Origin: Tabrizicola sp.
GTDB lineage: Bacteria; Pseudomonadota; Alphaproteobacteria; Rhodobacterales; Rhodobacteraceae
Direction of reading: 5' to 3'
Length of the DNA stretch: 64,000 nucleotides
Assembly (NCBI RefSeq): GCF_016792905.1
Contig: NZ_JAEULP010000016.1
Coordinates: 1-64,000 of the forward strand
The position numbers were made by a program, and so were the translations under genes. Shown piece by piece: positions 2,846-18,840 of the stretch (the stretch's first letter is position 1; each line of letters opens with the position of its first letter). The notes below the pieces were generated by a model. That model saw only the letters and a program-made list of their open reading frames with translations. It ran no database searches and was not told the DNA's origin.

Positions 2846-3367
2846 TTACTCCGAATACGCCGCAAGTCCGGTCGCGGCAATCCAGTCCAGCACAAAGGCC
2901 GTCAATCCGCGGTCAATGTGCAGCCGAAGGCCCTGCGGGTCGCGGCAGAGCGCGGCGATCTGCCCGGCGAAGAGCAGCGCGGCAGAGGGGCCGGGCGCGC
3001 GCGGGTCGATGGCGGTTGCGCGGACGAAGAGCTCCATCGCGTTCGCGCCGCCGATGTGAAGCACAGCAAGCGCCCCGGTCATCGGGGTGATGGCGATGCC
3101 GTCCCGCCAGCCGGCCGCCGCGTGATCCGCCGTCAGCCCGACGGCGAGCATCCGGTTGCGCGCCAGCCGCAGCGCATACCGGGTGTCGTCGACCTGCCCC
3201 AGCAGCCCCACGGGGGCGGACAGGGTCTGCGCCGCGCAAAACGCATCGAGATCGCCGCTGACCATCAACTGCGGCACGGCGGGCAGCACCCGCACGATCA
3301 GGCCATCGCCGCGCAGCGCGGCACCGGGGGCGGGGGCAGGGGGCCAGAAGGCGGCGCGGTCACGCAT
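2846..3367 (-). CDS. soxG: Sarcosine oxidase gamma subunit
   Basis: A protein of 173 residues with the length and position of the gamma subunit of heterotetrameric sarcosine oxidase. This cytoplasmic enzyme converts sarcosine, O2 and tetrahydrofolate to glycine, H2O2 and 5,10-methylene-THF. Gamma resembles the folate-binding GcvT fold but has no catalytic residues of its own. The C-terminal half (ITPMTGALAVLHIGGANAME onward) is typical. It overlaps the soxA 3' end by eight bases, which implies translational coupling. The call depends partly on the operon order B-D-A-G. Confidence 0.85.
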   Translation of the reverse strand: MRDRAAFWPPAPAPGAALRGDGLIVRVLPAVPQLMVSGDLDAFCAAQTLSAPVGLLGQVDDTRYALRLARNRMLAVGLTADHAAAGWRDGIAITPMTGALAVLHIGGANAMELFVRATAIDPRAPGPSAALLFAGQIAALCRDPQGLRLHIDRGLTAFVLDWIAATGLAAYSE

Positions 3368-6167
3368 GAAGCCGCTCTCCTTTCGGGTCGAGGAAGCAGG
3401 GCGGGCAGAGCGTCGCGCGCCGCCGCTGGCCCAGGTGGTGCAGCGTGATCTCCTGCCCGTGGCGTTCGGCGCCGCGTTCGATCAGGCCAAGGGCGACGGG
3501 ATGGTCGAGCGCCGCGCCGGGATGGCTGGAGGTGATATAGCCGATGGAGCGTGGTGTTGTGCCGGACAGGTCGATGCCATGCGCGCCGACCGGCAGCGGG
3601 CCGAACCCGTCGGCGGGCAGAAGGCCGACGAGCTGGTTGCGGTCGGCCCGCTGCGCCTCGTCGGTGAAGAGCGAGCGGCGGCCAAGGAAATCCACCTTCT
3701 TCGCCTTCATCGGCCCGCTGACCCCAAGGTCCATCGGTCGGGTCATGCCGTCGGTGTCCTTGCCGATGACGATGAAACCCTTCTCGGCCCGCAGGATCAT
3801 CAGCGCCTCGATCCCGATCGGCCCGCCGCCCTCGGCCCGGGCGGCAGCGGCCAGCCGGTCCCACAGCGGCGGGGCAAGGTCCTGCCGAACCGACACTTCA
3901 TAGGATCGGTCGCCGGTGAAGCTGACCCGGGTCAGGCGCAGTGCAGCCTCGCCGCTGCCATGCCAGCGCGTCGTCATGTGCGGGAAGGCCGTGTCGGACA
4001 GGTCGGCGTCGATGCCGGCGGCGGCCAGTGTCGCGCGCGCCTTCGGGCCACTGACCGTGAGGGTCGCGGTTTCGGCGGTGGCATCGTGAATGGCGATCCG
4101 CGCGGCGGGAAAGCGATCCTGCCGCCATTCTTCCAGCAGCCCATGCACGCCCGCGACATGCGCGGAGGAGCAGGACACGACGAAGCGGTGGTCGTCCAGC
4201 CGCACCAGCACGCCATCGTCATAGACCACGCCGCTTTCCGCCAGAATGAAGCCATAGCGGCACTGGCCCGGCTTCAGGGTGGAGACGGTGTTGTAGTGGA
4301 TGAAATCGAGGAAGGCGGCGGCGTCGGGGCCGATCACCTCGATCTTGCCGAGGGGCGAGGCGTCGAACAGGCCGACGGCGGCGCGGGCCAGTTTCGCCTC
4401 GGCCAGGATGGCGCTGTCATCGCTGCCGTAATGCGCCGGGCGCAGCCAGCCGCCATAGTCGCCGAGGCTTGCGCCGATCTCGCGGTGGCGGGCCTCGCAG
4501 GCCAGCCGCCGGACCGGGTTCATCCGCGACCCGCCGCGCGGCCCGGCGAGGCTGGTATAGGGCACCGGCGCAAACGGCGGGCGGTAGGTGGTGGTCCCCA
4601 CCTCGGGGATACTGCGCCCGGTCAGCGCCCCCATCAGCGCCATCCCGGCGAGGTTCGAGGTCTTGCCCTGGTCGGTCGCCATGCCAAGCGTGGTGTAGCG
4701 CTTCAGGTGCTCGACCGAGACCATGTTTTCGCGCGCGGCAAGCTCCACATCCTTGGCGGTCACATCGTGTTGCAGGTCGATCCAGACCCGCCCCGGCTGA
4801 CCGGGCCTGGGCCAGAGGGGCGTGATGTCATAGGGCGCGGAGTCGGCCACCGGCACATCGGGCAGGCCAAGCGTTTCGGGCAGGGCGGCAAGCGCCTCGG
4901 CCAGCGCGAAATGACCGGCGGCGGCGCCGACCGTGACCAGGCCAGCCACAGGCGCTTCGGGAACGAAGCTGAGCCGCGCGTCGTCCCAGCGCAGGCGTCC
5001 TTTCGCCTGGGCATGGAGGTGGACGGTTGCGGTGAACCCGCCCGAGACCAGAACGCAGTCGCAAGGGATGCGGGTGCCGTCTTCCAGCACGACCCCCGTC
5101 ACCATGCGACGCCCCAGCGCGCGGGCGACGCGACGGCCTTGGCGGGCATCGACCACCGTCACCTCGGCCCCGGCGGCGGTCATGGCGGCAGCCACCTCGT
5201 CGGTCGAGCTGTTGTTGGTGGCGACGACGATCCGCAGCCCCGGCAGCACGGCCTGCCGCCGCAGGTAGCCAAGCGCCGCCTCTGCCGACATCACCCCGGG
5301 CAGGTCGTTGGCGGCAAAGGGCAGCGGGCGTTCGACGGCGCCCGCCGCCAGCACGATGCGCCGGGGCCGCACGCGCCACAGCCGGTCGGGGCCGTCGTCC
5401 CGCCGCTGGTTCAACGCGATCAGGCCGTGGTCATAGATGCCGAAGGCGGTGGTGCGGGTCAGCACGGTCACGCCAAGCTGGCGCAGGTCGGCCTCTGCCG
5501 CAGCCAGCCAGTTGGCGCCGGGCATCCCGTCAATCCGGGCCGAGCGGAACAGAAGGCTGCCGCCGATCCGGCTGCCGTCATCGACCAGGACCACGCTTTC
5601 GCCGCTTCGCGACAGCCCCAGCGCGGCGGCGATGCCGACCGGCCCGGCCCCGACGACGACCGTATCGCAATGGTGGTTCCGCTGGTCGCCGTCCGGGAGC
5701 GGAGCGGAAGACGGCTTGATCCGCCCAAGCCCGGCCATGCGGCGGATGGCCGGTTCGTAGACGTGCCAGTTCGGCCAGAAGAAGGTCTTGTAGTAGAAGG
5801 CCGAGGGCAGGAACCGCGCGAAAAGGTCCAGAAACCCCAGCCGGTCCGCCCGGGCGGAGGGCGAGCTGTTGGCCGACCGCAAGTCCAGCCCGTCCCGGGC
5901 CGGTTCCAGCGTGACCCGCAGGTTCGGGTGGAAGCGGGGGCCGTCGGTGGCATCGGCGTAGACGTTCGGCTCTTCGGTTCCCGCGCCCCAGATCCCGCGC
6001 GGACGGCGATACTTGAAGCTGCGGCCAAGCACGCGCTCGCCCGACGCGAGGAGCGCCGAGGCCAGCGTGTCGCCGTGGAACCCCTGCACCGGGCGACCAT
6101 CGAAAGTGAAGCTCAGCGGGCGGCTGCGGTCGACCTCGCCCCCCTCGGGCAGTCGGCGGGCGGTCAT
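3360..6167 (-). CDS. soxA: Sarcosine oxidase alpha subunit
   Basis: A protein of 935 residues from the ATG at 6167 (MTARRLPEGG). That ATG overlaps the soxD stop as ATGA and fits better than the upstream in-frame ATG at 6245 inside soxD. Order of domains: a small N-terminal domain with the GRPVQGFHGDTLASALLA stretch, an NAD-binding dinucleotide fold (VVVGAGPVGIAAALGLSRSG near residue 170), a linker, then a GcvT-like tetrahydrofolate domain over roughly the last 370 residues. In the complex it holds NAD+ and receives the folate that traps the methyl-derived formaldehyde. Length is slightly below the usual 960-1000 residues. It is third in soxB-D-A-G. Confidence 0.93.
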   Translation of the reverse strand: MTARRLPEGGEVDRSRPLSFTFDGRPVQGFHGDTLASALLASGERVLGRSFKYRRPRGIWGAGTEEPNVYADATDGPRFHPNLRVTLEPARDGLDLRSANSSPSARADRLGFLDLFARFLPSAFYYKTFFWPNWHVYEPAIRRMAGLGRIKPSSAPLPDGDQRNHHCDTVVVGAGPVGIAAALGLSRSGESVVLVDDGSRIGGSLLFRSARIDGMPGANWLAAAEADLRQLGVTVLTRTTAFGIYDHGLIALNQRRDDGPDRLWRVRPRRIVLAAGAVERPLPFAANDLPGVMSAEAALGYLRRQAVLPGLRIVVATNNSSTDEVAAAMTAAGAEVTVVDARQGRRVARALGRRMVTGVVLEDGTRIPCDCVLVSGGFTATVHLHAQAKGRLRWDDARLSFVPEAPVAGLVTVGAAAGHFALAEALAALPETLGLPDVPVADSAPYDITPLWPRPGQPGRVWIDLQHDVTAKDVELAARENMVSVEHLKRYTTLGMATDQGKTSNLAGMALMGALTGRSIPEVGTTTYRPPFAPVPYTSLAGPRGGSRMNPVRRLACEARHREIGASLGDYGGWLRPAHYGSDDSAILAEAKLARAAVGLFDASPLGKIEVIGPDAAAFLDFIHYNTVSTLKPGQCRYGFILAESGVVYDDGVLVRLDDHRFVVSCSSAHVAGVHGLLEEWRQDRFPAARIAIHDATAETATLTVSGPKARATLAAAGIDADLSDTAFPHMTTRWHGSGEAALRLTRVSFTGDRSYEVSVRQDLAPPLWDRLAAAARAEGGGPIGIEALMILRAEKGFIVIGKDTDGMTRPMDLGVSGPMKAKKVDFLGRRSLFTDEAQRADRNQLVGLLPADGFGPLPVGAHGIDLSGTTPRSIGYITSSHPGAALDHPVALGLIERGAERHGQEITLHHLGQRRRATLCPPCFLDPKGERLHA

Positions 6168-6421
6168 GGCTGATCCCCCAGGGCGCGGCCGGGCAATGCC
6201 GTCATCGTCACGGTGTCGCGGTGCATCTTGAACAACTCGCCACACGGGATGTGCAGCCAGATCTCCTCGGCCGCGCCGCGCGGATTGGTGCGGAAGTGCA
6301 GGTACTGCGCCCAGGCCTCGGGCGAGCAGTCGGGAGCGGGGCGGTGGTTGCCAAGCTCGCCGCCGAAGTGGAATTCGGGTTCGGGACGGGGGCCGCAGAA
6401 GGGGCAGGAAAAGATCTGCAT
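6164..6421 (-). CDS. soxD: Sarcosine oxidase delta subunit (zinc-binding)
   Basis: A protein of 85 residues, typical of the small delta subunit. It stabilises the heterotetramer and binds one structural zinc ion. Cys6 and Cys9 (CPFC) with His57 and Cys60 (LHIPCG) match the expected zinc ligands. Only 7 bases separate it from soxB upstream, and its stop overlaps the soxA start. The start at 6421 is the only sensible one because the zinc Cys pair follows within six residues. Confidence 0.92.
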   Translation of the reverse strand: MQIFSCPFCGPRPEPEFHFGGELGNHRPAPDCSPEAWAQYLHFRTNPRGAAEEIWLHIPCGELFKMHRDTVTMTALPGRALGDQP

Positions 6422-6428
6422 CAGGTCC

Positions 6429-7682
6429 TCAATGCGCGATGCCGGAACCCGCAGCCTCGTCGATCAGCCGGCCGGTGGTGAAACGGTCCAGATCGAAGGG
6501 GCGCGAGATGTCGTGGTGCTGGCCGGTGGCCATCAGATGCGCCAGCAGCACGCCTCCGGCCGGGATCGACTTGAACCCCCCGGTACCCCAGCCGCAGTTG
6601 AGGAAAAGCCCCGGTAGCGGGCTTTCGCCAAGGATGGGAGAGCTGTCGGGCACCACGTCGACGATGCCCGCCCATTGCCGCATCAGGTTCAGCTGGCGGA
6701 AAGCGGGGAACATTTCCACAAGGCCGGAGAGCACGGTTTCCAGCACCGGCAGGTTGCCGCGCTGGCCGTAGGACGGGATGCGGTCCAGCCCACCGCCCAC
6801 CACCATCTCGCCCTTGTCGGACTGGCTGGCATAGGTGCCTGCGCCGGGGGACAGGACCACGGTATCCAGGATCGGCTTCACCGGTTCCGACACGCAGGCC
6901 TGCAAGGCGTAAGAGGTGACCGGCAGGCGGAACCCCGCCTTCGCCGCCATCTGCGACGAATGCCCGGCAACGGCGAGGCCGACCTTGTCGGCGCGGATCG
7001 CCCCGCTCGCGGTGACGACGCCCCGGCAGCGACCGCCCTCGATCAGGAAATCCGTGACCTCGCATTGCTGAAGGATATGGACCCCCAGCCGCGCGGCGGC
7101 GCGGGCATAGCCCCAGGCGACGGCATCGTGGCGCGCGGTGCCCGACCGGCCCTGCCAGACCCCGCCAAGGGCCGGATAGCGCGCCTTCGGTCCGAAGTTG
7201 TAGATCGGCAGCACGCGCTTCACGTCCTCGGGGCCGAAAAGCTCGGCGTCGGTGCCGTTGATCTGCATGGCGTTCACCACGCGGGCCGCCATCTCCATCT
7301 CGGCGGGCGTATGGGCCAGGCTGATCATGCCGCGCTGCGACAGCATGATGTTGTAGTTCAGCTCGCGGCTGAGGCCTTCGTAGAGCTTCAGCGCCATGTC
7401 GTAGAGCCGCACGCTTTCCGGGAAGAAGTAGTTCGACCGCACGACCGTGGTGTTGCGCCCGGTGTTGCCGCCGCCCAGCCAGCCCTTTTCCACCACCGCC
7501 ACATCGGTGATGCCGTGCTGTTTCGCCAGGTAATAGGCGGTCGCCAGCCCGTGCCCGCCGCCGCCCACGATCACCATGTCGTAGCGCGGCTTCGGCTCCG
7601 GGCTTTCCCAGGCCTTTGCCCAGCCCTTCTGGCCCGCCAGACCTTCTTTCAGCAGCGAAAGCGCGGAATAATGCCGTGTCAT
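6429..7682 (-). CDS. soxB: Sarcosine oxidase beta subunit
   Basis: A flavoprotein of 417 residues that carries noncovalent FAD and covalent FMN and oxidises the sarcosine C-N bond. The FAD motif VIVGGGGHGLATAYYLA spans about residues 38-53. His185 in GTARHDAVAWGYAR corresponds to the histidine that binds FMN covalently in characterised SoxB. The C-terminal LFLNCGWGTGGFKSIPAGG segment is the family's substrate/FAD-binding end. It starts five bases after the DMGDH-like gene, so all four sox genes are probably read from the promoter at about 10100-10150. Confidence 0.94.
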   Translation of the reverse strand: MTRHYSALSLLKEGLAGQKGWAKAWESPEPKPRYDMVIVGGGGHGLATAYYLAKQHGITDVAVVEKGWLGGGNTGRNTTVVRSNYFFPESVRLYDMALKLYEGLSRELNYNIMLSQRGMISLAHTPAEMEMAARVVNAMQINGTDAELFGPEDVKRVLPIYNFGPKARYPALGGVWQGRSGTARHDAVAWGYARAAARLGVHILQQCEVTDFLIEGGRCRGVVTASGAIRADKVGLAVAGHSSQMAAKAGFRLPVTSYALQACVSEPVKPILDTVVLSPGAGTYASQSDKGEMVVGGGLDRIPSYGQRGNLPVLETVLSGLVEMFPAFRQLNLMRQWAGIVDVVPDSSPILGESPLPGLFLNCGWGTGGFKSIPAGGVLLAHLMATGQHHDISRPFDLDRFTTGRLIDEAAGSGIAH

Positions 7683-7687: not shown

Positions 7688-10099
7688 TCAGCCGCGCATC
7701 GCCACGCCACTTGGGTCATGCGGCGAGGCGGCGATCACCTCGGCGGCGACCTCTTGCCCGACGATGTGCAGGCTGAGAGCCGTTCCCGGAGAGGAAACCG
7801 CGCGATCGACCATCGCCATCGCAAGGCTTTGCCCGACCGTATGGCCATAGCCGCCGGAGGTGACGAAGCCCACCAGCCTGCCGTCCTGCCAGACCGGTTC
7901 ATAGCCGGAGGCATCGGCATCTGTCGCGGCGACCTTGAGCGTCACCAGAACGCGGGCCGACGGATTGTCGCGTTCGGCCAGAGCGGCGGCGCGACCGGTG
8001 AAATCGCCCTTGTCCCAGTCGATGAAGCGATCCATCCCCGTCTCGCCCGGTGTATAGCCTTGCGTGAACTCGCGCGACCAGATGCCGAAGCTCTTCTCCA
8101 GCCGCAGCGACAGGACGGCGTTGAAGCCGATTTCGCGGAGGCCGAACTCCTGCCCTGCCGCCAGCAGCAGACGGCGCAGGGTCGCGTGTTCCAGTGCGCC
8201 GACGTTGATCTCGTAGCCCAGCTCGCCGGTGACCGACATGCGCGCGACCTTCGTGCGCAGCAGGCCGATGTCGAGCCGGGCCAGCCCCATGAACGGCAGG
8301 GCGGCGGCGGACACATCCTGATGCGTCAGCTTGCGCAGCACATCGCGCGACTTGGGGCCGACCAGGGCAAAGCCGCCCACGCTGTCGGAAATGTCGCGGA
8401 CCACGGCATCCGGCGCGGCGTGATCCTGAAACCAGCGCATGTGCCATTCGCGCAGGTAGTAGGAGCCCATGATCCACCAGGTCCCGTCGCCCCAGTTCAG
8501 GATCGACAGGTCGCCCTTGAGCTTGCCGTTCTGGCCCAGCATCGGCGCAAGGGCGGCGCGGCCGGGTTTCGGCAGCTTGCAGGCGAAGGTGCGGTCGAGC
8601 CAGGCCTTTGCGCCGGGGCCGGTGACTTCATAGCGCGAGAAGGCGGTGATATCGAGAAGGCCCACGCCGTCGCGGGCGGCCTTGGCCTCGGCGGCGATCA
8701 GGTCGAAGGCGTTCGACCGTTTCAGGGTTGGCACCTCCTCGAAGCCCTCGGGCGCGAAGTAGAGCGGTTGCTCCAGCCCCCAGCCCGCCCCCCAGCGGCA
8801 GCCTGCGGCGGTCATGCCGTCATAGGCGCCGGGGGTCTTCAGCACCCGACCGGCGGGCAGCTGTTCGTTCGGGTAGGACATCACGAAGCGGCGCGAGTAG
8901 AACTGGCCAGTGGTCTGGCGGATGAATTCGCGGCTGGCGGCGAAATCGCCGTAGCGGGCGATGTCCATGCCGTAGATGTCGGCCTCCGGCTCGCCGTGGA
9001 TCATCCATTCGGCCAGCGACTTGCCGACGCCGCCGCCTTGCAGGAACCCGGCCATCACCCCGCAGGCGACCCAGTAGTTGCGCAGCCCGCGCACCGGGCC
9101 GACCAGCGGGTTGCCGTCGGGCGAAAAGGTGAAGGCGCCGTTCACCCAGCGCTTGACCCCGGCGGTGTTCAGGCAGGGAAAGCGCTGGAAGCCAAGACCC
9201 ATCTCATGCTCGATGCGGCCAAGGTCCTCCTGGATCAGCTCGATGCCGAAGTCCCAGGGCGCGCCATCCATGTTCCAGTGCTTGAAATCGCGTTCATAGA
9301 TGCCAAGCAGCAGGCCCTTCTGTTCTTGCCTTGTGTAGGTGAAGCCTTCAAGATCGACGATCAGCGGGATTTCCCGGTCCATCGCGGCGAGTTCCGGGAT
9401 GGTTTCGGTGACGAGGTAGTGGTGTTCCATCGGCGTCACCGGCAGGTCTATGCCTGCCATCCGCCCCACCTGCTTGGCCCAGAGCCCGCCCGCGTTCACC
9501 ACATGCTCGGCGGTGATCAGGCCCTTGTCGGTGATGACTTCCCACATCCCGTCGGCGCGCTGGCGCAGGCTTTCGACCCGGGTGTGTTCCAGGATGTCGG
9601 CCCCGCGCATCTTGGCGGCGCGCGCATAGGCATGAACCACGGCGGAAGGGTCGATATGGCCTTCGCGGTCGCTCCACATGCCGCCGATGATGCCTTCGGT
9701 GGAGATGATCGGGCAGCGGGCCTTGATCTCGTCGGGCCCGATCAGTTCCACATCGTCGATGCCAAGCGACTGGAAGGTGCGGTAGGCCGATTGCAGCCAT
9801 TCCCAGCGGGCGGGCGCGCAGGCGACGGAGATGCCGCCCGTCATGTGCATTCCGATGTTGATACCGGATTCGGCGCCGACCTCGGTCAGAAGGTCGATGG
9901 TGTAGGCCTGCAACGACGCGATGTTCGGATCGGCGTTCAGAGCGTGGAAACCGCCTGCGGCGTGCCAGCTTGATCCGGCGGTCAGCACGTCGCGTTCCAG
10001 GATCGCGACATCGGTCCAGCCGAATTTCGCCAGGTGATAGGCGATCGAAGCCCCGACCACGCCACCGCCGATGATGGCAACCCGATACTGATTCTTCAT
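7688..10099 (-). CDS. Dimethylglycine/sarcosine dehydrogenase-like FAD oxidoreductase with GcvT domain
   Basis: A protein of 803 residues. The N-terminal half is a DAO-type FAD domain (VAIIGGGVVGASIAYHLA) and the C-terminal half a folate-binding GcvT/aminomethyltransferase domain. His46 in GSSWHAAGG matches the covalent FAD histidine of dimethylglycine and sarcosine dehydrogenases. The expected reaction is oxidative N-demethylation of an N-methyl amino acid with transfer of the one-carbon unit to tetrahydrofolate. I chose the ATG at 10099 (MKNQYR) because GAGGGAC lies just upstream; an earlier in-frame start would run through the operator at 10136. As the first gene before soxBDAG it would feed sarcosine to SoxBDAG if the substrate is dimethylglycine. 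The exact substrate is not settled. Confidence 0.85.
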   Translation of the reverse strand: MKNQYRVAIIGGGVVGASIAYHLAKFGWTDVAILERDVLTAGSSWHAAGGFHALNADPNIASLQAYTIDLLTEVGAESGINIGMHMTGGISVACAPARWEWLQSAYRTFQSLGIDDVELIGPDEIKARCPIISTEGIIGGMWSDREGHIDPSAVVHAYARAAKMRGADILEHTRVESLRQRADGMWEVITDKGLITAEHVVNAGGLWAKQVGRMAGIDLPVTPMEHHYLVTETIPELAAMDREIPLIVDLEGFTYTRQEQKGLLLGIYERDFKHWNMDGAPWDFGIELIQEDLGRIEHEMGLGFQRFPCLNTAGVKRWVNGAFTFSPDGNPLVGPVRGLRNYWVACGVMAGFLQGGGVGKSLAEWMIHGEPEADIYGMDIARYGDFAASREFIRQTTGQFYSRRFVMSYPNEQLPAGRVLKTPGAYDGMTAAGCRWGAGWGLEQPLYFAPEGFEEVPTLKRSNAFDLIAAEAKAARDGVGLLDITAFSRYEVTGPGAKAWLDRTFACKLPKPGRAALAPMLGQNGKLKGDLSILNWGDGTWWIMGSYYLREWHMRWFQDHAAPDAVVRDISDSVGGFALVGPKSRDVLRKLTHQDVSAAALPFMGLARLDIGLLRTKVARMSVTGELGYEINVGALEHATLRRLLLAAGQEFGLREIGFNAVLSLRLEKSFGIWSREFTQGYTPGETGMDRFIDWDKGDFTGRAAALAERDNPSARVLVTLKVAATDADASGYEPVWQDGRLVGFVTSGGYGHTVGQSLAMAMVDRAVSSPGTALSLHIVGQEVAAEVIAASPHDPSGVAMRG

Positions 10100-10135: not shown

Positions 10136-10149
10136 GTACACTTATGTCC
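10136..10149. promoter_or_regulatory. Putative TetR operator upstream of the DMGDH-sox operon (site B)
   Basis: On the minus strand this reads GGACATAAGTGTAC, an imperfect palindrome 37 bases upstream of the flavoprotein start. The same element recurs at 11026, 16061 and 16283, each 37-56 bases before another gene of this cluster. Binding by the neighbouring TetR protein is inferred, not shown. Confidence 0.65.
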
Positions 10150-10179
10150 ATTGCTTTCTCGATTCGACGGCACAACATG

Positions 10180-10205
10180 AAAACGCCGCCCCGGGGGCGG
10201 CGTTT
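10180..10205. terminator. Rho-independent terminator after the TetR gene
   Basis: AAACGCCGCCCC and GGGGCGGCGTTT form 12-base arms around a single G at the centre. On the minus strand the right-hand side ends in TTTT. It lies 22 bases past the TetR stop and separates tetR transcription from the DMGDH-sox promoter. T-runs occur on both sides, so it could work in both directions. Confidence 0.8.
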
Positions 10206-10226
10206 CAGATGGCATTCGGCAGGGGG

Positions 10227-10970
10227 TCAGTCGCGGGCGCGGCGCAGCGGGCCAAGCACCTTGTCCTCGACCAGCTGCGTCAGTTCGCGGCATTGCGCTG
10301 CATCGGGCATGAGACCGGCGAAGATGTGCAGATAGGCCGGCCCATGCGAAAAGCGGACCGCCGGTTCCTCGAACTCTTCCAGCGTGTACTGGCCGATCTG
10401 GGTGAAATACAGGACGCGGGCGCGGATCAGCGCCTCTTCCTCGCCCAGGCCGTAGCGCAGGAACATCCGCCGCAAAGCATCCATCCGGATCTCGTCGGCC
10501 TGCAAGACCACCGATTTCACCGTGGCCGAGCGCCGTGCCCAGAGCCGCACCGCCATGTCGAGCGTCGGGTCGAACTGGCTGGAATCAACCCAGCATTCGA
10601 ACACGTTGGTTATCGCGCGGATCACGTCCGGCGCGGGTCGCATCGCCCGTTCGATGATCGGGCTGGTGTTCTTGCGCAGCCATTCGTCCAGCATCGCCTT
10701 GTGCAGCGCCTCGCGGCTTTCGAAATGCCAGTAGAAGCTGGATCGCGCCACGTCCAGTTGCCGGGCCATGATCTGCACCTTGACCCGGTCGATGCCGTCT
10801 TCGACCAGAGTGCGCAAGGCGAGGTCGAGCCAGTCCTGCCGCGTCAGCGGTTGGGCGCGGTCTTCGGGGGCCGCCTCGGGGCGGGAGTGGTCGGTTCCGT
10901 CCTGCACAGTGGCCCTGGCCTTTCGCCGCCGATGGTGCCCGAGATTAGGAAGTTCAGCGTCCTTGGGCAA
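10227..10970 (-). CDS. TetR family transcriptional regulator of the N-methylamine module
   Basis: Up to 247 residues. The helix-turn-helix (ALRTLVEDGIDRVKVQIMARQLDVARSS, ending in FYWHF) begins near residue 50 and is typical of TetR; the C-terminal two thirds is an alpha-helical ligand domain with no recognised specificity. The longest frame starts with TTG at 10970. A GTG at 10907 preceded by AGGG is an alternative that keeps the whole HTH. It lies between the importer operon and the oxidase operon, with its own terminator, and a copy of the repeated palindrome sits 56 bases upstream. That suggests autoregulation and control of both operons. The inducer may be an N-methylated amino acid. Confidence 0.9.
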   Translation of the reverse strand: MPKDAELPNLGHHRRRKARATVQDGTDHSRPEAAPEDRAQPLTRQDWLDLALRTLVEDGIDRVKVQIMARQLDVARSSFYWHFESREALHKAMLDEWLRKNTSPIIERAMRPAPDVIRAITNVFECWVDSSQFDPTLDMAVRLWARRSATVKSVVLQADEIRMDALRRMFLRYGLGEEEALIRARVLYFTQIGQYTLEEFEEPAVRFSHGPAYLHIFAGLMPDAAQCRELTQLVEDKVLGPLRRARD

Positions 10971-10992
10971 TGGCTGCCAAGCCTTTCATGTC

Positions 10993-11019
10993 GCGGCACC
11001 CGCAAGGACAGGGTGCCGC
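10993..11019. terminator. Hairpin between importer ATPase gene and tetR
   Basis: GCGGCACCC (10993-11001) pairs perfectly with GGGTGCCGC (11011-11019) across a 9-base loop. It lies just after the ATPase stop on the minus strand. No T-run follows, so termination may be weak or factor-assisted; it could also be a structured 5' leader of tetR. Confidence 0.5.
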
Positions 11020-11025
11020 ATTAAG

Positions 11026-11039
11026 GTTCACTTATGTAC
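11026..11039. promoter_or_regulatory. Putative TetR operator upstream of tetR (site C)
   Basis: On the minus strand this reads GTACATAAGTGAAC. It overlaps the last codons and stop of the ABC ATPase gene and lies 56 bases before the TTG start of the TetR gene. It differs from the consensus of the other sites at one base. Confidence 0.6.
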
Positions 11040-12638
11040 GGTCTTTTCGGCCATCACAGCCTCCAGCCAGCCGGGTTTCATCTGCGGAACCGAGACGAGC
11101 AGATTGCGGGTATAGGGGTGCATCGGTTCGGCAAAGACCTCGGCGGTCGGGCCGACGGCAACGGTCTGGCCCTGAAGCAGGACCAGCGTGCGGTGCGCGA
11201 TGCGGCGGACGATGCCGAGATCGTGGGTGATGAACAGGTAGGACAGGCCGAGTTCATCCTGCAACCGGACCAGAAGCCGCAGGATGTCGTCGGCGATCAG
11301 CTGGTCGAGCGCCGAGGTGGGTTCGTCGCAGATCAGGATGTCCGGCTCTGCGGCCAGGGCGCGGGCGATCGCCACGCGCTGCTTCTGGCCACCCGACAGC
11401 TGCGGCGGCTGGCGGTCGGCAAAGGCGGCGGGCAGGCCGACCAGCGCCAGCAGCTCCTCGACGCGGCTGCGCAGTCCGGCCCCCTTCAGCCCAAGACGCA
11501 GCGCCGCCGGTCGCCCGACGATCTTGCCGATGCTTTGCCGCGGGTTCAGCGACATGTCCGGCAACTGGTGGATCAACTGGATTCGCCGCAGTTCCTCGGC
11601 ACTGCGGGACCGATATCCTTCGGGCAGCGGCCGACCGTCCAGCGCGACCCGCCCGGCCACCGGCGGCAGGAGCCCGGTCAGCACCTTCGCCAGCGTCGAC
11701 TTGCCCGAACCGGATTCCCCCACCACGGCAAAGGTCTCGCCCCGGTGCAGGTCCAGCGTGACGCCCTGCAACACGCGGGTGCGGCCATAGGCGGCCTCTA
11801 CCTTCTGCACCCGCAGGACCGGGGGGCCGGGATCGGCAGGCAGGGGCCGCATCATCGGCTGGCTGTGGTCGCGCTCGGCGACCAGCGCGGCGGTATAGCA
11901 TTCGCGGGGGGCGGTGAGGATCTGGGCGCATGTGCCCAGTTCGACCATCTTGCCGCCGCGCAGCACCATGATCCGGTCGGCCAGTTGCGAGACCACGGCA
12001 AGATCGTGGCTGATGTAGAGCGCGGCGCTATGCTCCTCGGCGATGATCTTCTTGATCAGCGCCAGCACCTCAAGCTGGGTCGTCACGTCCAGCGCCGTCG
12101 TCGGTTCGTCGAAGACGAGGATGTCGGGGCGACCGATCACCGCCATCGCCGCCATCGCGCGCTGCAACTGGCCGCCTGACACTTCGTGCGGGTACTTGCG
12201 CGCCAGGGCCTGCGGATCGGGCAGGCCAAGCCGGCCTAGCAGCGCCACCGCGCGGGCCTGCGCCTCGGCCTTGGTCATCTGGCGGTGCCGCAGCGGGCTT
12301 TCGCAGATCTGGTCGACCAGCCGCATGGCCGGGTTGAACGAGGCGGCGGCGCTTTGCGCGACATAGGCGATCCGGACGCCGCGGTAGCCCTGCCGCCCCG
12401 TCACGCCGATGCGGCGCAGATCGGTGGCGTCGATGCGGATCTCGCCGCCGGTGATCCGGCACCCCGCCCGGGCATAGCCCATCGCGGCCAGCGCGATGGT
12501 GGACTTGCCCGCGCCGCTTTCGCCGATGAGGCCCAACACTTCGCCCCGCCGCAGGGTGAGCGACACATCGTCGACCAGCACATGCTCCTGCGCCTCGATG
12601 CGCAGGTTGCGGATTTCCAGGATCGGGTCTTGGGCCAT
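11028..12638 (-). CDS. Peptide/opine-type ABC transporter, fused double ATP-binding protein
   Basis: A protein of 536 residues carrying two complete ABC ATPase domains, equivalent to OppD and OppF joined. The Walker A motifs are GESGAGKST in the first half and GESGSGKST in the second. Signature motifs are SGGQLQRAMAA and SGGQKQRVAIA, and Walker B motifs include ILVFDEPTTALD and ILICDEPTSALD. It powers import through the two permeases encoded just upstream. I chose the ATG at 12638 with GGAG upstream rather than the GTG two codons earlier. The final codons overlap the operator at 11026. Confidence 0.93.
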   Translation of the reverse strand: MAQDPILEIRNLRIEAQEHVLVDDVSLTLRRGEVLGLIGESGAGKSTIALAAMGYARAGCRITGGEIRIDATDLRRIGVTGRQGYRGVRIAYVAQSAAASFNPAMRLVDQICESPLRHRQMTKAEAQARAVALLGRLGLPDPQALARKYPHEVSGGQLQRAMAAMAVIGRPDILVFDEPTTALDVTTQLEVLALIKKIIAEEHSAALYISHDLAVVSQLADRIMVLRGGKMVELGTCAQILTAPRECYTAALVAERDHSQPMMRPLPADPGPPVLRVQKVEAAYGRTRVLQGVTLDLHRGETFAVVGESGSGKSTLAKVLTGLLPPVAGRVALDGRPLPEGYRSRSAEELRRIQLIHQLPDMSLNPRQSIGKIVGRPAALRLGLKGAGLRSRVEELLALVGLPAAFADRQPPQLSGGQKQRVAIARALAAEPDILICDEPTSALDQLIADDILRLLVRLQDELGLSYLFITHDLGIVRRIAHRTLVLLQGQTVAVGPTAEVFAEPMHPYTRNLLVSVPQMKPGWLEAVMAEKTVHK

Positions 12639-12640
12639 GA

Positions 12641-13468
12641 TCACAACTCCGCCGAGGCGCCCGAAGGACGGACGTTGCGGCTGAGCAGCCAGTCGACGAT
12701 CAGGTTCACCGCCACAGTGACGATGGCGATGGCCAGCGCCGGCCAGATCGGGGCGAGGATGCCGAAGCTGATCGCCTGACCGTTCTCGCGCACCATGCCG
12801 CCCCAGTCGGCCTGCGGCGGCTGCACGCCAAGGCCCAGGAACGACAGGCTGGCGACGTAGAGAAAGTTGAAGCAGAACCGCAGCCCGAATTCCGAGATCA
12901 GCGGCGGCAGGGCGTTTGGCAGGATTTCGTGCGCCATGATCCAGGGCAGCGATTCCCCGCGCAGACGCGCGACGTCGACGAAATCGCGGGTGGCGACGTC
13001 CACCGCCACGGCCCGGGCCACCAGGTAGACACGCGTGGAATCGAGAAGCGCGATGGTCAGGATCAGCGTCGGGATCGACGACCCCAGAGCGGTCAGCACG
13101 ATCAGCGCCATGATCAGCACCGGCACCGACAGGAACATGTCGATGACGCGCGAGAGAAAGGCGTCGACCCTTGGCCCGGCGACGGCAGCGAAGATGCCCA
13201 GCGAGACGCCAATGGCGAAGGAGAGAAGCGTCGTTACGAGCGCCAGCCCGATGGTGGTGCGCGCGCCCGAGATCACGCGGGATAGGATGTCGCGGCCGAT
13301 GTTGTCGGTGCCCAGCCAGAATTCGGCGGACGGGCCGGACCAGGTGCGACCGACGGTGGTTTCCGGGTCATAGGGCACGATCCACGGCCCGATGAGCGCA
13401 AAGCCGATGAAAAGCGCCAGCACGATGATGCCGAAGATCGCGGTCGGCGGAATCCGGAGCCGGGTCAT
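12641..13468 (-). CDS. ABC transporter permease, DppC/OppC type
   Basis: An integral membrane protein of 275 residues with an N-terminal transmembrane helix (FGIIVLALFIGFALIGPWIV), several further helices and the family loop GTDNIGRDILSRVISGAR. The coupling-helix region that contacts the ATPase is near VDVARLRGESLPWIMAHEILPNAL. It forms the translocation channel with the DppB-type partner, from which it is separated by one base. Its stop overlaps the ATPase start region. Confidence 0.93.
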   Translation of the reverse strand: MTRLRIPPTAIFGIIVLALFIGFALIGPWIVPYDPETTVGRTWSGPSAEFWLGTDNIGRDILSRVISGARTTIGLALVTTLLSFAIGVSLGIFAAVAGPRVDAFLSRVIDMFLSVPVLIMALIVLTALGSSIPTLILTIALLDSTRVYLVARAVAVDVATRDFVDVARLRGESLPWIMAHEILPNALPPLISEFGLRFCFNFLYVASLSFLGLGVQPPQADWGGMVRENGQAISFGILAPIWPALAIAIVTVAVNLIVDWLLSRNVRPSGASAEL

Positions 13469-13469
13469 C

Positions 13470-14426
13470 TCATCTCCCCCTGTTCGGACTGCGCAGGCGC
13501 GGGTTCACCAGGACGGCCAGGATGTCGGAGACAAGGTTCAGCCCGATGAAGGCGATGCCGAAGATCAGCCCGCAGGCCTGAACGACCGGAATGTCGCGCT
13601 TGGCCACCGCGTCGACCATGTACTGCCCAAGGCCCGGATAGACGAAGACCACCTCGATCACCACGATGCCGACAACCAGATAGGCCAGGTTCATCGCCAC
13701 CACGGCGATGATCGGGGCCGCCGCGTTGGGCAGGGCGTGGCGGGTGATGACCGCACCGCGCGGGACGCCCTTGAGGAAGGCCATCTCGATATAGGGCTGC
13801 GACATGACCGACAGGATCGAGGTCCGCGTCATCCGCATCATGTGCGCGGTGACAAGGCAGGCCAGCGCCACGATGGGCAGCACCATTGCGTGCAGCGATT
13901 CCCAGAACCCCATTTCGGGGAAGATGGTGGACAGGTTCGGGAACCACCCGAGCTTGACCGAGAACACCAGGATCAGGAGGTAGGCCGTGAAGAACTCGGG
14001 GAAGGAGATCGCGGCCAGCGCGCCGATGGCAAGGACACGGTCCAGGGCCGTGCCTTCGTGCGCGGCGGAAAGGATGCCAAGCCCGATCGCCAGCGGCACC
14101 GAGACCAGCGCCGTCAGCCCCGCCAGGCGCAGCGTGCTGACCAGGCGGGGCCAGATCGTCTCGGCGATGGGGGTCTGGGTGGTCAGCGACTGGCCAAGAT
14201 CGCCGTGCAACAGATCCCACAGCCATTTGCCGTAGCGCAGAACCAGCGGGTCATCGAGCCCCAGCTGCTCGCGGAACCGGGCCAGGGTTTCCGGCGTGGC
14301 GCCGCGACCGAGGATTTCGGTCGCGGCGTCACCGGGCAGAAGGTTGGTGGCCACGAAGACCAGCACCGTCACGCTGATGAGCGTCACCAGGCCAAGCGCC
14401 AGGCGAATTGCGATGTAACGGCCCAT
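13470..14426 (-). CDS. ABC transporter permease, DppB/OppB type
   Basis: A protein of 318 residues from MGRYIAIRLALGLV, the usual N-terminus of DppB-type permeases, so I preferred this ATG to the upstream in-frame start at 14471. It has about six transmembrane helices, the characteristic large periplasmic loop after helix 1 (LGRGATPETLARFREQLGLD), and the binding-protein-dependent transport loop near the C-terminus. It follows the solute-binding gene by 19 bases and pairs with the downstream DppC-type permease. Confidence 0.93.
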   Translation of the reverse strand: MGRYIAIRLALGLVTLISVTVLVFVATNLLPGDAATEILGRGATPETLARFREQLGLDDPLVLRYGKWLWDLLHGDLGQSLTTQTPIAETIWPRLVSTLRLAGLTALVSVPLAIGLGILSAAHEGTALDRVLAIGALAAISFPEFFTAYLLILVFSVKLGWFPNLSTIFPEMGFWESLHAMVLPIVALACLVTAHMMRMTRTSILSVMSQPYIEMAFLKGVPRGAVITRHALPNAAAPIIAVVAMNLAYLVVGIVVIEVVFVYPGLGQYMVDAVAKRDIPVVQACGLIFGIAFIGLNLVSDILAVLVNPRLRSPNRGR

Positions 14427-14445
14427 CTGTCGCGGCCCCTTTTCG

Positions 14446-16017
14446 TCAGGCGAACCAGGCCTTTTCCGCAACCCGAAGGTCGCACATGCCGAAGCGCGGG
14501 TGCTTGTCGACGCCCATCACCGTGGTGGCATAGCCATCCAGCGTGTCGTTGATGGCAAAGACGATGTGCCCGGCCTCGTCCGACACCAGTTGCTGACAGG
14601 TGGCATACATTTCCTTGCGTTTCGCCTGGTCAAGTTCGACCCGCGCCTCGGCCAGAAGCTTGTCGAAGGTTTCGTTCTTCCAGTTGCTGTCGTTCATCGG
14701 CGAGGCGGTCGAATAGCTGACGGTCAGGCTTTCGTCCGCTGTCATCCGCGCGCCCCAGATCACCGCGCAGAACGGATCGACGCGCCAGACGTTCGACCAG
14801 TAGCCGTCGGCGGGCACCTTGTTCAGCTCCAGCTTGATCCCGGCGGGTTCCAGCGACTGCTGGAAGATCTGCGCGCAGTCGGGCGATGTCACCCAGGCAC
14901 CCTCCGAGACGGTCAGGCGGAATTCGCTGCCGGTCAGCCCGGCCTCTTTCAGGTGGAAGGCGGCCTTGTCGGGGTCATAGGCGCGCTGCGGCAGGTCGGC
15001 GTTGAAGAACGGGTTCGACGGGGCGACGGTGTGGTCGTTGCCGATCGTCGCATAGCCGTTCAGCACGTTGTCGATGATCTTCTGCCGGTCGATGCCGTAT
15101 TTCAGCGCCAGAACGGCGTTCTTGTTGGTGTAGGGGTCGTCCGAAACGCGGGCGCAGAACACATAGCGCAGGCCCGTGCCCTCGCCGCGCACGATGTGCA
15201 GGTTCGGCGCCTGCATCAGGAAGTCGACCGTGCGCGGGTCCAGCCGGTTGGCGCCGTCGATCTGGCCCGATTGCAGCGCCGAGGTCCGCGCCACGGCATC
15301 GGCGATGTAGCGGATTTCCACGGTGTCAAAGTTGCCGCGCCCGGGTTTCCAATAGTCGCCCCGGTTCTTGAACACGGCACGGACGCCCGGCTCGAAGCTT
15401 TCCACGACATAGGCGCCGGTCCCGATCGGGTTCGCCCAGTCGGTATGGCCGTCCGGCACGACGAGAAGGTGATAGTCGCCCAGCAGCGCCACGAAGTCGG
15501 CATTGCCCTGCGACAGCGTGATCTCGATCTGGGTGTCGGTGATCTTCTTGATGTCGGTGATCGGTTCCAGGTTGCCCTTCAGCTGAGAGACGGTTTCGCC
15601 CCGGTGCAGGTTGATCGAATAGATCACGTCCTGCGCGTCCAGCGTCTTGCCGTTCGAGAAGGTGACACCCTGGCGGATGTTGAAGGTCCAGACCTTCGCT
15701 CCCGGCGCGACCTCCCAGCTTTCGATCAGCTCAGGCTGCGGCTGGCCGGCGCCGTCGAATTCGATCAGGCCGTTCATCACCGCGTAGCAGAGGCTGATCG
15801 GCACTTCGTCCGAGAGCGTCATCGGGTTGAAGCTGTCGGTCGAGGTGCCGCCCTCCATGCCTAGGCGCAGCGTGCCGCCCTTCTTCGCCTCTTGCGCGTG
15901 CGCCGCGCGGGGCAACCAAAGGCCACCCGCCGTTACCAGCGCGCCAGCCGCCGCTGTTCCAAGGAACCCGCGGCGGGAAAGCAGTCCTGCCGACGTCCAC
16001 CCGTTTCCGTCACGCAT
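14446..16017 (-). CDS. ABC transporter solute-binding protein, family 5 (peptide/nickel/opine type), Tat-exported
   Basis: A protein of 523 residues. A twin-arginine signal (LSRRGFLGTAAAGALV) ends near AHAQE, so it is folded before export to the periplasm. The mature protein shows the SBP_bac_5 pattern: GGTLRLG at the start, IESWEVAPGAKVWTFNIRQGVTFSNGKTLDAQDVIYS, and a C-terminal substrate lobe. It is the first gene of the importer operon and starts 44 bases downstream of a copy of the shared palindrome. By context the cargo may be an N-methylated amino acid or small peptide-like amine; the sequence does not identify it. Confidence 0.92.
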   Translation of the reverse strand: MRDGNGWTSAGLLSRRGFLGTAAAGALVTAGGLWLPRAAHAQEAKKGGTLRLGMEGGTSTDSFNPMTLSDEVPISLCYAVMNGLIEFDGAGQPQPELIESWEVAPGAKVWTFNIRQGVTFSNGKTLDAQDVIYSINLHRGETVSQLKGNLEPITDIKKITDTQIEITLSQGNADFVALLGDYHLLVVPDGHTDWANPIGTGAYVVESFEPGVRAVFKNRGDYWKPGRGNFDTVEIRYIADAVARTSALQSGQIDGANRLDPRTVDFLMQAPNLHIVRGEGTGLRYVFCARVSDDPYTNKNAVLALKYGIDRQKIIDNVLNGYATIGNDHTVAPSNPFFNADLPQRAYDPDKAAFHLKEAGLTGSEFRLTVSEGAWVTSPDCAQIFQQSLEPAGIKLELNKVPADGYWSNVWRVDPFCAVIWGARMTADESLTVSYSTASPMNDSNWKNETFDKLLAEARVELDQAKRKEMYATCQQLVSDEAGHIVFAINDTLDGYATTVMGVDKHPRFGMCDLRVAEKAWFA

Positions 16018-16060
16018 CCGTCATCTCCCTCTGTCGCCGTTGCGCCTGTCGAAGTTTTCA

Positions 16061-16074
16061 GTACATAACTGTAC
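16061..16074. promoter_or_regulatory. Putative TetR operator upstream of the importer operon (site A)
   Basis: GTACATAACTGTAC has perfect five-base arms (GTACA/TGTAC) and is the most symmetrical copy of the shared element. It ends 44 bases before the solute-binding protein start, which also has an AGGGAG ribosome-binding site. Confidence 0.68.
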
Positions 16075-16282
16075 TTTTCACGATCTGCCAAGGCCCTTCT
16101 GAGCCTCATGCTGTCGAAGGGGCGGCCAGCGTCCACAGTTCTCTTGTAGATCATTGAAGTATCGTTATGATTTTCCAGATTCCGATTCTTCTTCGGGGGC
16201 TGCGGCCCGATGCCCTGACGCCAATCATCGCCTTTTGGATTTGGCAATCATCGCCCATGCTCCACTATTGCGAATCATGGAA

Positions 16283-16296
16283 GTACACTTGTGCGC
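16283..16296. promoter_or_regulatory. Putative TetR operator upstream of the LysR gene (site D)
   Basis: On the minus strand this reads GCGCACAAGTGTAC, the weakest copy: one arm is degenerate. It lies 47 bases before the LysR start chosen here, a spacing close to those of the other copies. Confidence 0.45.
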
Positions 16297-16342: not shown

Positions 16343-17251
16343 ATGCCATCGCTGCGCTCCGACATCGGCTACCTTGCCTGGCTGTTCGCCTTTGAGGCAG
16401 CGGGGCGGCACCTTGGCTTCACTCGTGCGGCCGAGGAACTGGGGGTCACGCAGGCTGCGGTCAGCAAGCAGATCGTTGCGCTTGAGGCCCATCTCGGCCG
16501 GAAGCTGTTCCATCGCAGGGCACGCGGGGTCGAGCTTACGGTTGCGGGGCGAGAGCTTCTGGACACGACAAGCTACGCGCTCGGCGCAATCGCCCGGACC
16601 ATGCGGGACCTGCGGGATGCGCGGGACGGCCCGCTGACCGTTGCCCTGTCCATTCCACTGTCGCAATACTGGCTAATGCCACGACTGTCCGACTTCACCG
16701 CGCGGCATTCAGGAATCGCGATCCGGATCATCGCGCAGGACGAACCCGAGAAAGCCCCCGACGCCGACCTACAGGTTGTCTTCGCGCAAGCGGGCAATGC
16801 GCTGGTGACGGGCGCGCAGCGCCTGTTCGGCGCATCCGTGGTTGCCATGGCGTCGCAGGAATTTCTGGAGGCGCACCCGCTGCACACGGTTTCGGACGTA
16901 CTTCGCGCGCCCCTCATCCGCCATGACGCCCCCGATTCCAGCTGGCTTTCTTGGCGGGACTGGGCACACCACGCCGGTGCAGACACGCAGTCGCTGCGCC
17001 CCACCCTGTCGGTCAGTCGCTACGAGGACGCGGTGATCGCGGCGCAGCGGCATCAGGGCGTGGCGCTGGTCTGGTGCATCGAGGGCCAGCCACTTCCCTC
17101 GGAAGGCGGTCTGCGCCCGGTGCCGGGACCGGCGATGGCAGCCCCTGGCGCCATCTACCTTGTCGTCCGTGACCGCACTCGCCCGGGGGTCGAGGACTTG
17201 ATCGCGTGGCTTGCCGAACAGGCGGGCGAGCGGGCGCCCGGCATCCGATAG
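16343..17251 (+). CDS. LysR family transcriptional regulator (GcvA-like)
   Basis: A protein of 302 residues from the ATG at 16343 (MPSLRSDIGYLAWLFAFEAAGRH), which gives the standard LysR N-terminus. The helix-turn-helix is FTRAAEELGVTQAAVSKQIVALEAHLGRKLF, followed by a periplasmic-binding-like effector domain. The best likeness by eye is the GcvA subgroup, which controls amino-acid genes. It is divergent from the importer operon and converges with the MttB-family gene 11 bases further on. It may regulate the importer promoter in the shared intergenic region. The targets are inferred. Confidence 0.9.
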   Translation: MPSLRSDIGYLAWLFAFEAAGRHLGFTRAAEELGVTQAAVSKQIVALEAHLGRKLFHRRARGVELTVAGRELLDTTSYALGAIARTMRDLRDARDGPLTVALSIPLSQYWLMPRLSDFTARHSGIAIRIIAQDEPEKAPDADLQVVFAQAGNALVTGAQRLFGASVVAMASQEFLEAHPLHTVSDVLRAPLIRHDAPDSSWLSWRDWAHHAGADTQSLRPTLSVSRYEDAVIAAQRHQGVALVWCIEGQPLPSEGGLRPVPGPAMAAPGAIYLVVRDRTRPGVEDLIAWLAEQAGERAPGIR

Positions 17252-17262: not shown

Positions 17263-18840
17263 TCAATCCATCGCTGGTGCACCACCCGCTGCCTTGCCTG
17301 CTTCGACGACGGGGCGCAGCCGTTCCAGCCGTTCGGCGGCACCCTCTGGCGCGCGGGCCTCGCGCAATACCTGCTTCCAGACATCCGTCGCCCGTTCAGC
17401 CGAGGTCCTGGACCCGTTTTCGGTCCAGGTGCCGAAATTGTTCAGATCGGCCACGATCGGGGCGTAGAAGGCGGTCTGGTAGCGGTCCATCGTGTGCTGT
17501 GTCTGGAAGAAATGCCCGCCGGGGGCCACTTCGGCGATGGCGTCAAAGCCGATCTCGGCGGCGGAACCCGAAGGCCGGGTGCAAAGCTCGGCGAACATCT
17601 GCAGGCTTTCGACATCGTTGACGAACTTCTCGTAGCCAAAGGTGAGCCCGCCCTCCAGCCAGCCCGCCGTGTGCACGATCAGCGTGCCATGCGCCATCGA
17701 CGCGCCCCAGAGGCCCATCGTCGTTTCAAGCGCCGCCTGCATGTCGGCTGTGTTTGACGCTGCACCCGATGCCGTGCGCCAGGGCAGGCCGATATGCCTG
17801 GCCAGTTGCCCGCCGCCGATCTGCATCTTGATGTGTTCGGGGGTGCCATAGGCGGGGGCACCGCTTTTCATGTAGACGTTCGACGAAAAGCCGCCATAGC
17901 TGACCGGGCAGCCGCTGTTGACCAGCTGGGTCAGCGTGATCGCGGCGAGCGCCTCGGCATGTTGCAACGCCAATGCGCCTGCGGGCGTGATTGGCGCCAT
18001 CGCCCCGGCGAGGCAGAAGGGCGTGACGATGCACATCTGTCGCGCGCGGGCAAAGTCGATCAGTCCCTTGGCCATCGGGTTGTCCAGGAGCCGCGGCGAG
18101 TTGGTGTTGATCACCGTGCTGACCCAGACGTCGGCCGCAAACTCATCATCCGTCAGGTTCAGCGCGGACTGTATCATCTCGAACCCCTGCGCCACCTGCG
18201 CCGGGCCGCGCGAGAACAGGAACAGCGGCTTGTCGGAATGGGCAAGCTGCGCCTCGATGGTGGCGTAGTGGCGCAGGTGCACCGGCACGTCCTGCGGCTC
18301 GACCATCGGGCCAAGCATGTGGATGACGTCATAGGCCTGGCAGAGCTGAAGGGATTCCACAAAGTCCGCCAGCGATCCGGGCCGGCGTCCGCGGTCGCGG
18401 TCGGTCGCGTTCGGGCAACCGACGCCCGCCATGAAGATCATACGCCCCTGAGCATAGGTCTGGTCGCGCTGCGGATTGGGCGCGCGCAACCGCCACGTCC
18501 GTGGTGCGCCCGCAAGCGCCGACGAGACGATGTCGCGGCCGATGAAGACCATGTCTTCGACAACCCTGGCGCCGGCCGCCGCATAGATGTCCCGCGCCTC
18601 TGGCAGCAGGACCCGCATGCCAAGGTCTTCCAGAACCCGCAGCGCTGTATCGTGAATGGCCGCGATCTCGTCGTCCGAGAACATCTTCTGCGCGGGGAAG
18701 GGGTGATCCAGATGGCGATAGTCCGGGGCGCGGACCGTCTTGGTCGTCGTCTCCCGACCGCGACGCCGCTGGCGTGAAACGAGGCTTTGCGATGCAGACA
18801 GGTCTTCAACATCCATGGATACGGCCTTTGGCTGAGACAC
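17263..18840 (-). CDS. MttB-family (COG5598) methyltransferase lacking pyrrolysine
   Basis: A protein of 525 residues across a single uninterrupted frame, so it belongs to the non-pyrrolysine branch of the trimethylamine methyltransferase family. One characterised member of this branch, MtgB, demethylates glycine betaine to dimethylglycine with a corrinoid partner. The family TIM-barrel stretches are present: NSGCPVSYGGFSSN, YMKSGAPAYGTPEHIKMQ and FGYEKFVNDVESLQMFAELC. The first start is GTG at 18840; ATG at 18816 is an alternative. No corrinoid protein or reactivase gene is in the window. The dimethylglycine-oxidising genes upstream make a quaternary amine substrate attractive, but this remains inference. 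Confidence 0.83.
   Translation of the reverse strand: MSQPKAVSMDVEDLSASQSLVSRQRRRGRETTTKTVRAPDYRHLDHPFPAQKMFSDDEIAAIHDTALRVLEDLGMRVLLPEARDIYAAAGARVVEDMVFIGRDIVSSALAGAPRTWRLRAPNPQRDQTYAQGRMIFMAGVGCPNATDRDRGRRPGSLADFVESLQLCQAYDVIHMLGPMVEPQDVPVHLRHYATIEAQLAHSDKPLFLFSRGPAQVAQGFEMIQSALNLTDDEFAADVWVSTVINTNSPRLLDNPMAKGLIDFARARQMCIVTPFCLAGAMAPITPAGALALQHAEALAAITLTQLVNSGCPVSYGGFSSNVYMKSGAPAYGTPEHIKMQIGGGQLARHIGLPWRTASGAASNTADMQAALETTMGLWGASMAHGTLIVHTAGWLEGGLTFGYEKFVNDVESLQMFAELCTRPSGSAAEIGFDAIAEVAPGGHFFQTQHTMDRYQTAFYAPIVADLNNFGTWTENGSRTSAERATDVWKQVLREARAPEGAAERLERLRPVVEAGKAAGGAPAMD

Follow-up and report, generated by a model that had tools for sequence, protein, structure and literature searches.

Within a 64,000-nucleotide stretch of Tabrizicola sp. 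DNA (hereafter the window, a part of contig 59 of the 3.79-Mb genome G000), three of four copies of a short inverted repeat are very probably on-off switches for the genes of methylated-nitrogen import and demethylation. These three copies are located around one gene for a TetR-family regulator and precede three units: an Opp-type importer, tetR itself, and a dimethylglycine dehydrogenase-like gene (DMGDH) followed by the sarcosine oxidase genes soxBDAG. Their assignment as candidate operators is strongly supported by conservation of the element beside related tetR genes. From these sequence comparisons, it appears likely that an autoregulated TetR-family repressor controls all three units from the three operators, through predicted binding, repression and release by a putative inducer.

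Inverted repeats in the window

An earlier note on this DNA had described four copies of one palindrome as a shared TetR operator upstream of the DMGDH-sox operon, the tetR gene, the importer operon and a gene for a LysR-family regulator. All four copies are present: site 1 at 10136..10149 (GTACACTTATGTCC on the plus strand), site 2 at 11026..11039 (GTTCACTTATGTAC on the plus strand), site 3 at 16061..16074 (GTACATAACTGTAC), and site 4 at 16283..16296 (GTACACTTGTGCGC). None of them equals the consensus quoted in the note, GTACATAAGTGTAC, which has 0 exact occurrences and from which the copies differ by 1, 1, 1 and 3 mismatches, respectively. When up to 3 mismatches are allowed, this consensus gives 4 matches versus 0.27 expected from shuffled sequences, a comparison of limited weight, as the consensus was derived from the same four sites. 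The core of the repeat is better described by the dyad GTACA-N4-TGTAC than by the earlier 14-mer, and sites 1, 2, 3 and 4 deviate from this dyad by 1, 1, 0 and 2 mismatches.

Across the whole genome, the dyad with 0-1 mismatch occurs at 8 places, compared with 27 places for a reversed control pattern. Three of the 8 places are sites 1-3, which fall inside 6 kb, and site 3 is the sole perfect dyad of the genome; site 4 is not among these three. Site 1 is located 36 bases before the start of DMGDH, site 2 is 55 bases before the assumed start of tetR, site 3 precedes the importer gene for the substrate-binding protein by 43 bases, and site 4 is 46 bases before the assumed start of the LysR gene; the distances given previously (37, 56, 44 and 47 bases) are each one base longer due to a counting convention. 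The ATPase gene upstream of tetR (11028-12644) extends into site 2 with its last codons and stop codon. A search for further regulon members with the looser pattern GKACA-N4-TGTMC, allowing one mismatch, gave 161 places in the same genome versus 280 for the control, and this pattern is therefore uninformative.

Motif reconstruction from other loci

A 22-column palindromic matrix was trained on the DMGDH promoters of other loci, with the window left out, and converged to tCTGgACA-N4-TGTcCAGa. Applied to the 64-kb window, it placed site 1 (19.4 bits), site 3 (13.1 bits) and site 2 (10.6 bits) at ranks 1, 2 and 3, and site 4 (-6.6 bits) at rank 65. With the near TetR clade only as the training set, sites 1, 2, 3 and 4 were ranked 1, 2, 3 and 13, and with the far clade only they were ranked 1, 7, 2 and 162. 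Based on these matrix and clade-wise ranks, sites 1-3 are supported, site 2 being the weakest of the three, and site 4 is unsupported as an operator. Elsewhere in the genome, one relaxed-pattern place on contig C39 scored 7.1 bits, and one of the five other strict-pattern places, before a LysR gene on contig C40, whose neighbours are without informative Pfam matches, scored 5.6 bits.

Since the matrix had been seeded with the GTACA core of the window, all exact 4-mer dyads with spacings of 0-14 were also counted in an unseeded test, in which GACA-N4-TGTC was 1st of 3840 (20 of the 35 promoters versus 0.3 in shuffled sequences). At a threshold of 8 bits or higher, sites were detected in 35/35 training promoters (34 of them at 15 bits or higher) versus 5/339 promoters of other open reading frames (ORFs) in the same loci; thus, the motif is not equally common in unrelated promoters. 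Locus L010, which has no DMGDH and scored -12.8, was dropped from the later training, and one near-identical promoter was also removed, reducing the set from 36 to 35.

Twenty further loci were kept outside the training. Nine of these carry full DMGDH genes, and all nine promoters (9/9) contain a site, with scores from 21.6 to 29.4 bits, each being the top site of its own locus. Among the 11 held-out loci without a full DMGDH, sites precede genes for MttB-family methyltransferases (mttB) in L162 (28.7 bits) and L170 (27.2 bits), and sites of 12 to 17 bits are found in L157, L156, L163 and L168. The element has just 10 specified positions and its fourth copy is at the chance level, as expected if the copies were chance matches in a large window; nevertheless, the occurrence of 3 of the 8 genome-wide places within 6 kb, the conservation in other genera, and the 9/9 held-out promoters contradict this explanation and make it extremely improbable.

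Conservation beside related tetR genes

A TetR search in named genomes yielded 14 loci, including those from Tabrizicola, Rhizobium, Mesorhizobium and Gemmobacter. Eleven of the 14 loci hold 20 sites at 0-1 mismatch, which adjoin tetR, mttB, importer, DMGDH, soxB or, in L017, an electron transfer flavoprotein (ETF)-like gene. The latter gene matches the ETF models below their cut-offs, and L018 carries a site at the corresponding position, upstream of an unannotated gene. Loci L011, L013 and L022 have no site of 0-1 mismatch; in L013, a two-mismatch site is located before DMGDH.

In a sample of 394 genomes from the family, TetR matches at E 1e-30 were obtained in 175, counting the own genome. 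From these genomes, 60 places were examined (one of them the paralogue in the own genome), plus locus L154, whose genes and operator are the same as in L009. A DMGDH-like gene directly adjoins an mttB-like gene in 20 of the first 40 places, among which the own paralogue is again one. Six named plasmid loci outside the training set were also scored. Sites were found between tetR and soxB in Shinella HZN7 (30.0 bits), between the gene for a FAD-dependent oxidoreductase and tetR in Mesorhizobium B1-1-8 (22.1 bits), and before a FAD-dependent oxidoreductase gene that precedes a methyltransferase gene in Leisingera NJS204 (20.6 bits). Tistrella reaches 17.1 bits beside a tetR without DMGDH, the Paracoccus ferrooxidans locus reaches 10.9 bits, and the Ruegeria TM1040 locus has no site over 6 bits. 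A DNA search of relatives with positions 15800-16600 of the window gave short matches only. In the relatives, the predicted operator family precedes tetR, mttB, Opp-type importer, DMGDH and ETF-like genes, and its conservation near orthologous tetR genes holds for those tetR genes that are located beside DMGDH.

Several of these loci contain additional genes. Loci L083, L097, L100, L103 and L145 represent a TetR sub-branch adjoining importer genes, and L145 also has CoA-transferase and indolepyruvate oxidoreductase genes near tetR. In L012, a formyltetrahydrofolate deformylase gene adjoins tetR, and the importer operon includes a gene for a Peptidase_M24-family enzyme (5205-6470; best NCBIfam match DMSP lyase DddP, below the cut-off), at the place of which L019 and L021 have 413-aa ORFs. 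A two-mismatch dyad at position 11890 of L012 directly precedes a gene for a GbdR-like AraC-type regulator near tetR (11954-13108), a possible regulatory link.

Candidate regulator of the predicted operators

The conserved palindrome is present in the promoter of the window's own tetR gene, as site 2. In the tree of 58 TetR proteins, from which the short fragments L020, L021 and L022 (up to 150 aa) were excluded, the half-site class of the 49 labelled rows requires 10 changes, compared with a mean of 19.7 and a minimum of 14 in 300 label shuffles; L102 (6.0 bits) was unlabelled in this count, and 11 changes are required when it is labelled. In a paralogous branch of TetR proteins (L101, L105, L106, L110 and L092, the last being at about 10100 on contig C46 of the own genome), the dyad immediately next to tetR takes the form TTGACA/TCGACA, and operator specificity therefore seems to have diverged. 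Next to the TetR paralogue on C46 is AACTCGACACATGTGTCAAGTT, a further variant of this operator plan.

The palindrome might instead be bound by some other regulator, either the LysR protein, whose gene is located within the cluster in the window, or a global one. This appears quite improbable, since the operator adjoins related tetR genes in loci with no LysR relative detected alongside, the half-site class follows the TetR tree, and the own paralogue on C46 is accompanied by a different version of the dyad.

A number of observations weigh against the proposed control of the three units by the linked TetR protein. The agreement with the tree is not proof of TetR binding, because operators are inherited with genes. 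The seed of the matrix came from the window, and site 2 was placed just 7th after far-clade training. No site was found beside tetR in L011 and L022 (both tetR matches, the latter locus ending at a contig end), in L076 (mttB-tetR on a 5-kb contig), and in the five loci of the importer-adjoining sub-branch named above, which have tetR without DMGDH. Five of the 11 held-out loci without a full DMGDH (L155, L161, L166, L172, L173) have no 12-bit site, and L155 counts as a miss because it carries tetR-soxB. Finally, a scan for a sigma-70-like promoter found none.

The LysR gene and mttB

The inclusion of the LysR gene in the TetR regulon, as proposed in the earlier note, is not supported; the shared operator around one TetR is, for sites 1-3. 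Site 4 was rejected as an operator given its matrix rank, its clade-wise ranks and the lack of a site at the other LysR orthologue, and is probably a chance match. LysR matches at E 1e-70 were found in 2 of the 394 genomes, the own genome and G222, so that the conservation test is thin, resting on a single other orthologue. The G222 gene is located near an mttB that is 80% identical to that of the window, an AraC-type gene and Opp-type importer genes, with which it forms a module lacking the TetR operator (locus L151 on contig C49, 6539-15868); this 20-kb stretch gave no matches for tetR, DMGDH or sox. Around the start of the G222 LysR gene, every match to the dyad has at least 4 mismatches, and no site in the stretch as a whole exceeds 5.0 bits.

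If all four sites were operators, TetR and LysR would form a cascade. The location of site 4 at 46 bases before the LysR start, its one intact half-site and its 13th place in the window even after near-clade training are consistent with such a cascade; however, rank 65 with the full matrix and rank 162 with the far clade, as well as the gene context and upstream region of the G222 orthologue, argue that it is unlikely. LysR and mttB probably constitute a distinct module next to the TetR regulon of the window.

The mttB gene of the window, adjoining here and a regulon member in relatives, was not mentioned in the earlier note. As a member of the regulon in the window it was rejected, with no operator within 250 bases upstream and a best dyad match of 4 mismatches. 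In L009, whose TetR is the nearest on the tree, mttB is located behind DMGDH in the same orientation, and the mttB of the window is displaced. The mttB of relatives is inside the predicted regulon; that of the window may answer to LysR.

Gene content and metabolic reconstruction

The genes of the DMGDH-sox unit are all on the minus strand. DMGDH (7688..10099) has DAO and GCV_T domains in Pfam, and its best solved match is dimethylglycine dehydrogenase 4pab (E 9e-155). It is followed by soxB for the sarcosine oxidase beta subunit (6429..7682; TIGR01373, 690 bits, cut-off 529), soxD for the delta subunit (6164..6421; Pfam SoxD, 84.3 bits, cut-off 27), and the alpha-like soxA (3360..6245), which matches Pfam SO_alpha_A3 and GCV_T above the cut-off and TIGR01372 with 1085 bits, slightly below the cut-off of 1164; the true start of soxA is probably inside the ORF. 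The ORF in the soxG place (2846..3367) is named by position only, with 0 families matched in NCBIfam and Pfam. The TetR-family regulator is encoded on the minus strand at 10227..10970 (Pfam TetR_N, 35.6 bits, cut-off 24), its start being uncertain and TTG assumed. Its best NCBIfam match is MtrR (35 bits versus a cut-off of 280), the BetI model is absent from the 8 NCBIfam families listed for it, and a comparison with PDB sequences gave weak matches only (best E 2.9e-5).

The Opp/Dpp-type importer, also on the minus strand, comprises a substrate-binding protein (14446..16017; Pfam SBP_bac_5, 250 bits), two permeases (13470..14471, Pfam BPD_transp_1; 12641..13468, best NCBIfam Opp2C/Opp1C, below the cut-offs), and a double ATPase with two ABC_tran stretches (11028..12644). 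The LysR-family regulator (16343..17251, plus strand; Pfam HTH_1 and LysR_substrate) faces the MttB-family methyltransferase gene (17263..18840, minus strand; Pfam MTTB, 573.8 bits), which matches TIGR02369 with 248 bits, below the cut-off of 525. It thus has the MTTB domain but falls outside the pyrrolysine equivalog, a combination expected of MtgB-type glycine betaine methyltransferases.

Taken together, the module looks like a stepwise N-demethylation pathway, in which methyl transfer to a corrinoid protein would be followed by DMGDH and then by sarcosine oxidase; this reading is based on the presence of mttB in the regulon of relatives and on the family matches of DMGDH, SoxB and SoxD. The presence of MttB in the relatives' regulon and beside it here suggests that a quaternary or tertiary amine is demethylated before the dimethylglycine and sarcosine steps, and glycine betaine is a possible substrate.

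Among autoregulated TetR-family repressors, the functional neighbour is BetI, which controls the choline/betaine genes. The TetR of the window resembles these repressors in its TetR_N domain and in the palindromes in its own promoter and the promoters of neighbouring genes, and differs from BetI by the lack of a BetI model among the listed NCBIfam families. In Pseudomonas, the betaine, dimethylglycine and sarcosine genes are under AraC-type control by GbdR/SouR; similar metabolic steps are under substrate control in both cases, whereas the regulator is an AraC-type activator in Pseudomonas and a TetR protein in the window.

As described in a 2025 report (PMC12478193) on cobalamin-dependent betaine demethylation in aerobic alphaproteobacteria, the MtgBCD(E) system of Ruegeria pomeroyi demethylates glycine betaine. 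The report places enzymes for other quaternary amines in the MttB superfamily, and its authors propose diverse substrates for the multiple pfam06253 genes. The module described here is similar to that system in having a pfam06253 methyltransferase, subsequent steps for dimethylglycine and sarcosine, and one shared corrinoid protein, and differs in its Opp-type importer, that of Ruegeria pomeroyi being BCCT-type (PMC12478193). In the own genome, 8 MTTB genes and one B12-binding_2 protein were found, which fits the shared-corrinoid model of that report, and this single corrinoid protein possibly serves as a hub for many methyltransferases. The B12-binding_2 protein matches the MtgC models below their cut-offs, and its gene is near an MtgE-like gene that scores above the cut-off of the betaine-homocysteine methyltransferase model. 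The corresponding locus (L122, 7535-11460 on contig C21) contains, in addition to the MtgC-like corrinoid gene and the gene of the betaine-homocysteine methyltransferase type, a 210-aa ORF with no NCBIfam match.

Proposed mechanism

In the proposed mechanism, the TetR-family product of the gene at 10227-10970 would act on sites 1-3 as its operators. In the absence of the inducer, the TetR dimer would occupy the two half-sites near the start codons and block transcription of the three units (importer, tetR and DMGDH-soxBDAG). The repressor would be released by a methylated amine taken up through the Opp-type importer, or by a product of this amine. Site 4 and LysR would remain outside the TetR regulon.

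Alternatively, TetR could bind these sites and activate the genes or only modulate their expression, as the sites could fall on either side of the promoters. We regard this as rather unlikely, since the distance of the sites from the start codons (36-55 bases) is that at which a repressor would be expected to bind, and most characterised TetR-family regulators are repressors.

Conclusions

The operator recurs across many genera, is well supported and apparently undescribed, and belongs to a regulator of a known kind; three of the four proposed sites are retained. A literature search on TetR with these genes, pathways or operator letters, the subscription literature being mostly outside its reach, gave no description of this regulator among the papers listed. 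In the main text of PMC12478193, no TetR is mentioned (the displayed occurrences of 'tetr' belong to tetrahydrofolate-type words and Tetrahedron-like names) and the word 'operator' occurs 0 times; in the parts read or searched, no regulator was found described for the cobalamin-dependent betaine demethylation route.

A broader reading, which we offer tentatively, is that an entire TetR branch with operators on the ACA-N4-TGT plan, with variable outer bases, is dedicated to the local switching of modules for aerobic, cobalamin-linked N-demethylation (MttB, DMGDH, sox and importer) in the Alphaproteobacteria. Duplicated branches would have re-tuned the outer bases of the half-sites, and paralogues within a single cell would thereby recognise different operators. 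The module of the window would act on some methylated amine, distinct from glycine betaine, taken up via the Opp-type importer. For cobalamin-dependent demethylation, the operator names a candidate regulator, a predicted binding site and a gene set. It could also connect individual members of the many MttB paralogues with the importers that are co-regulated with them, and thereby help to identify their substrates.

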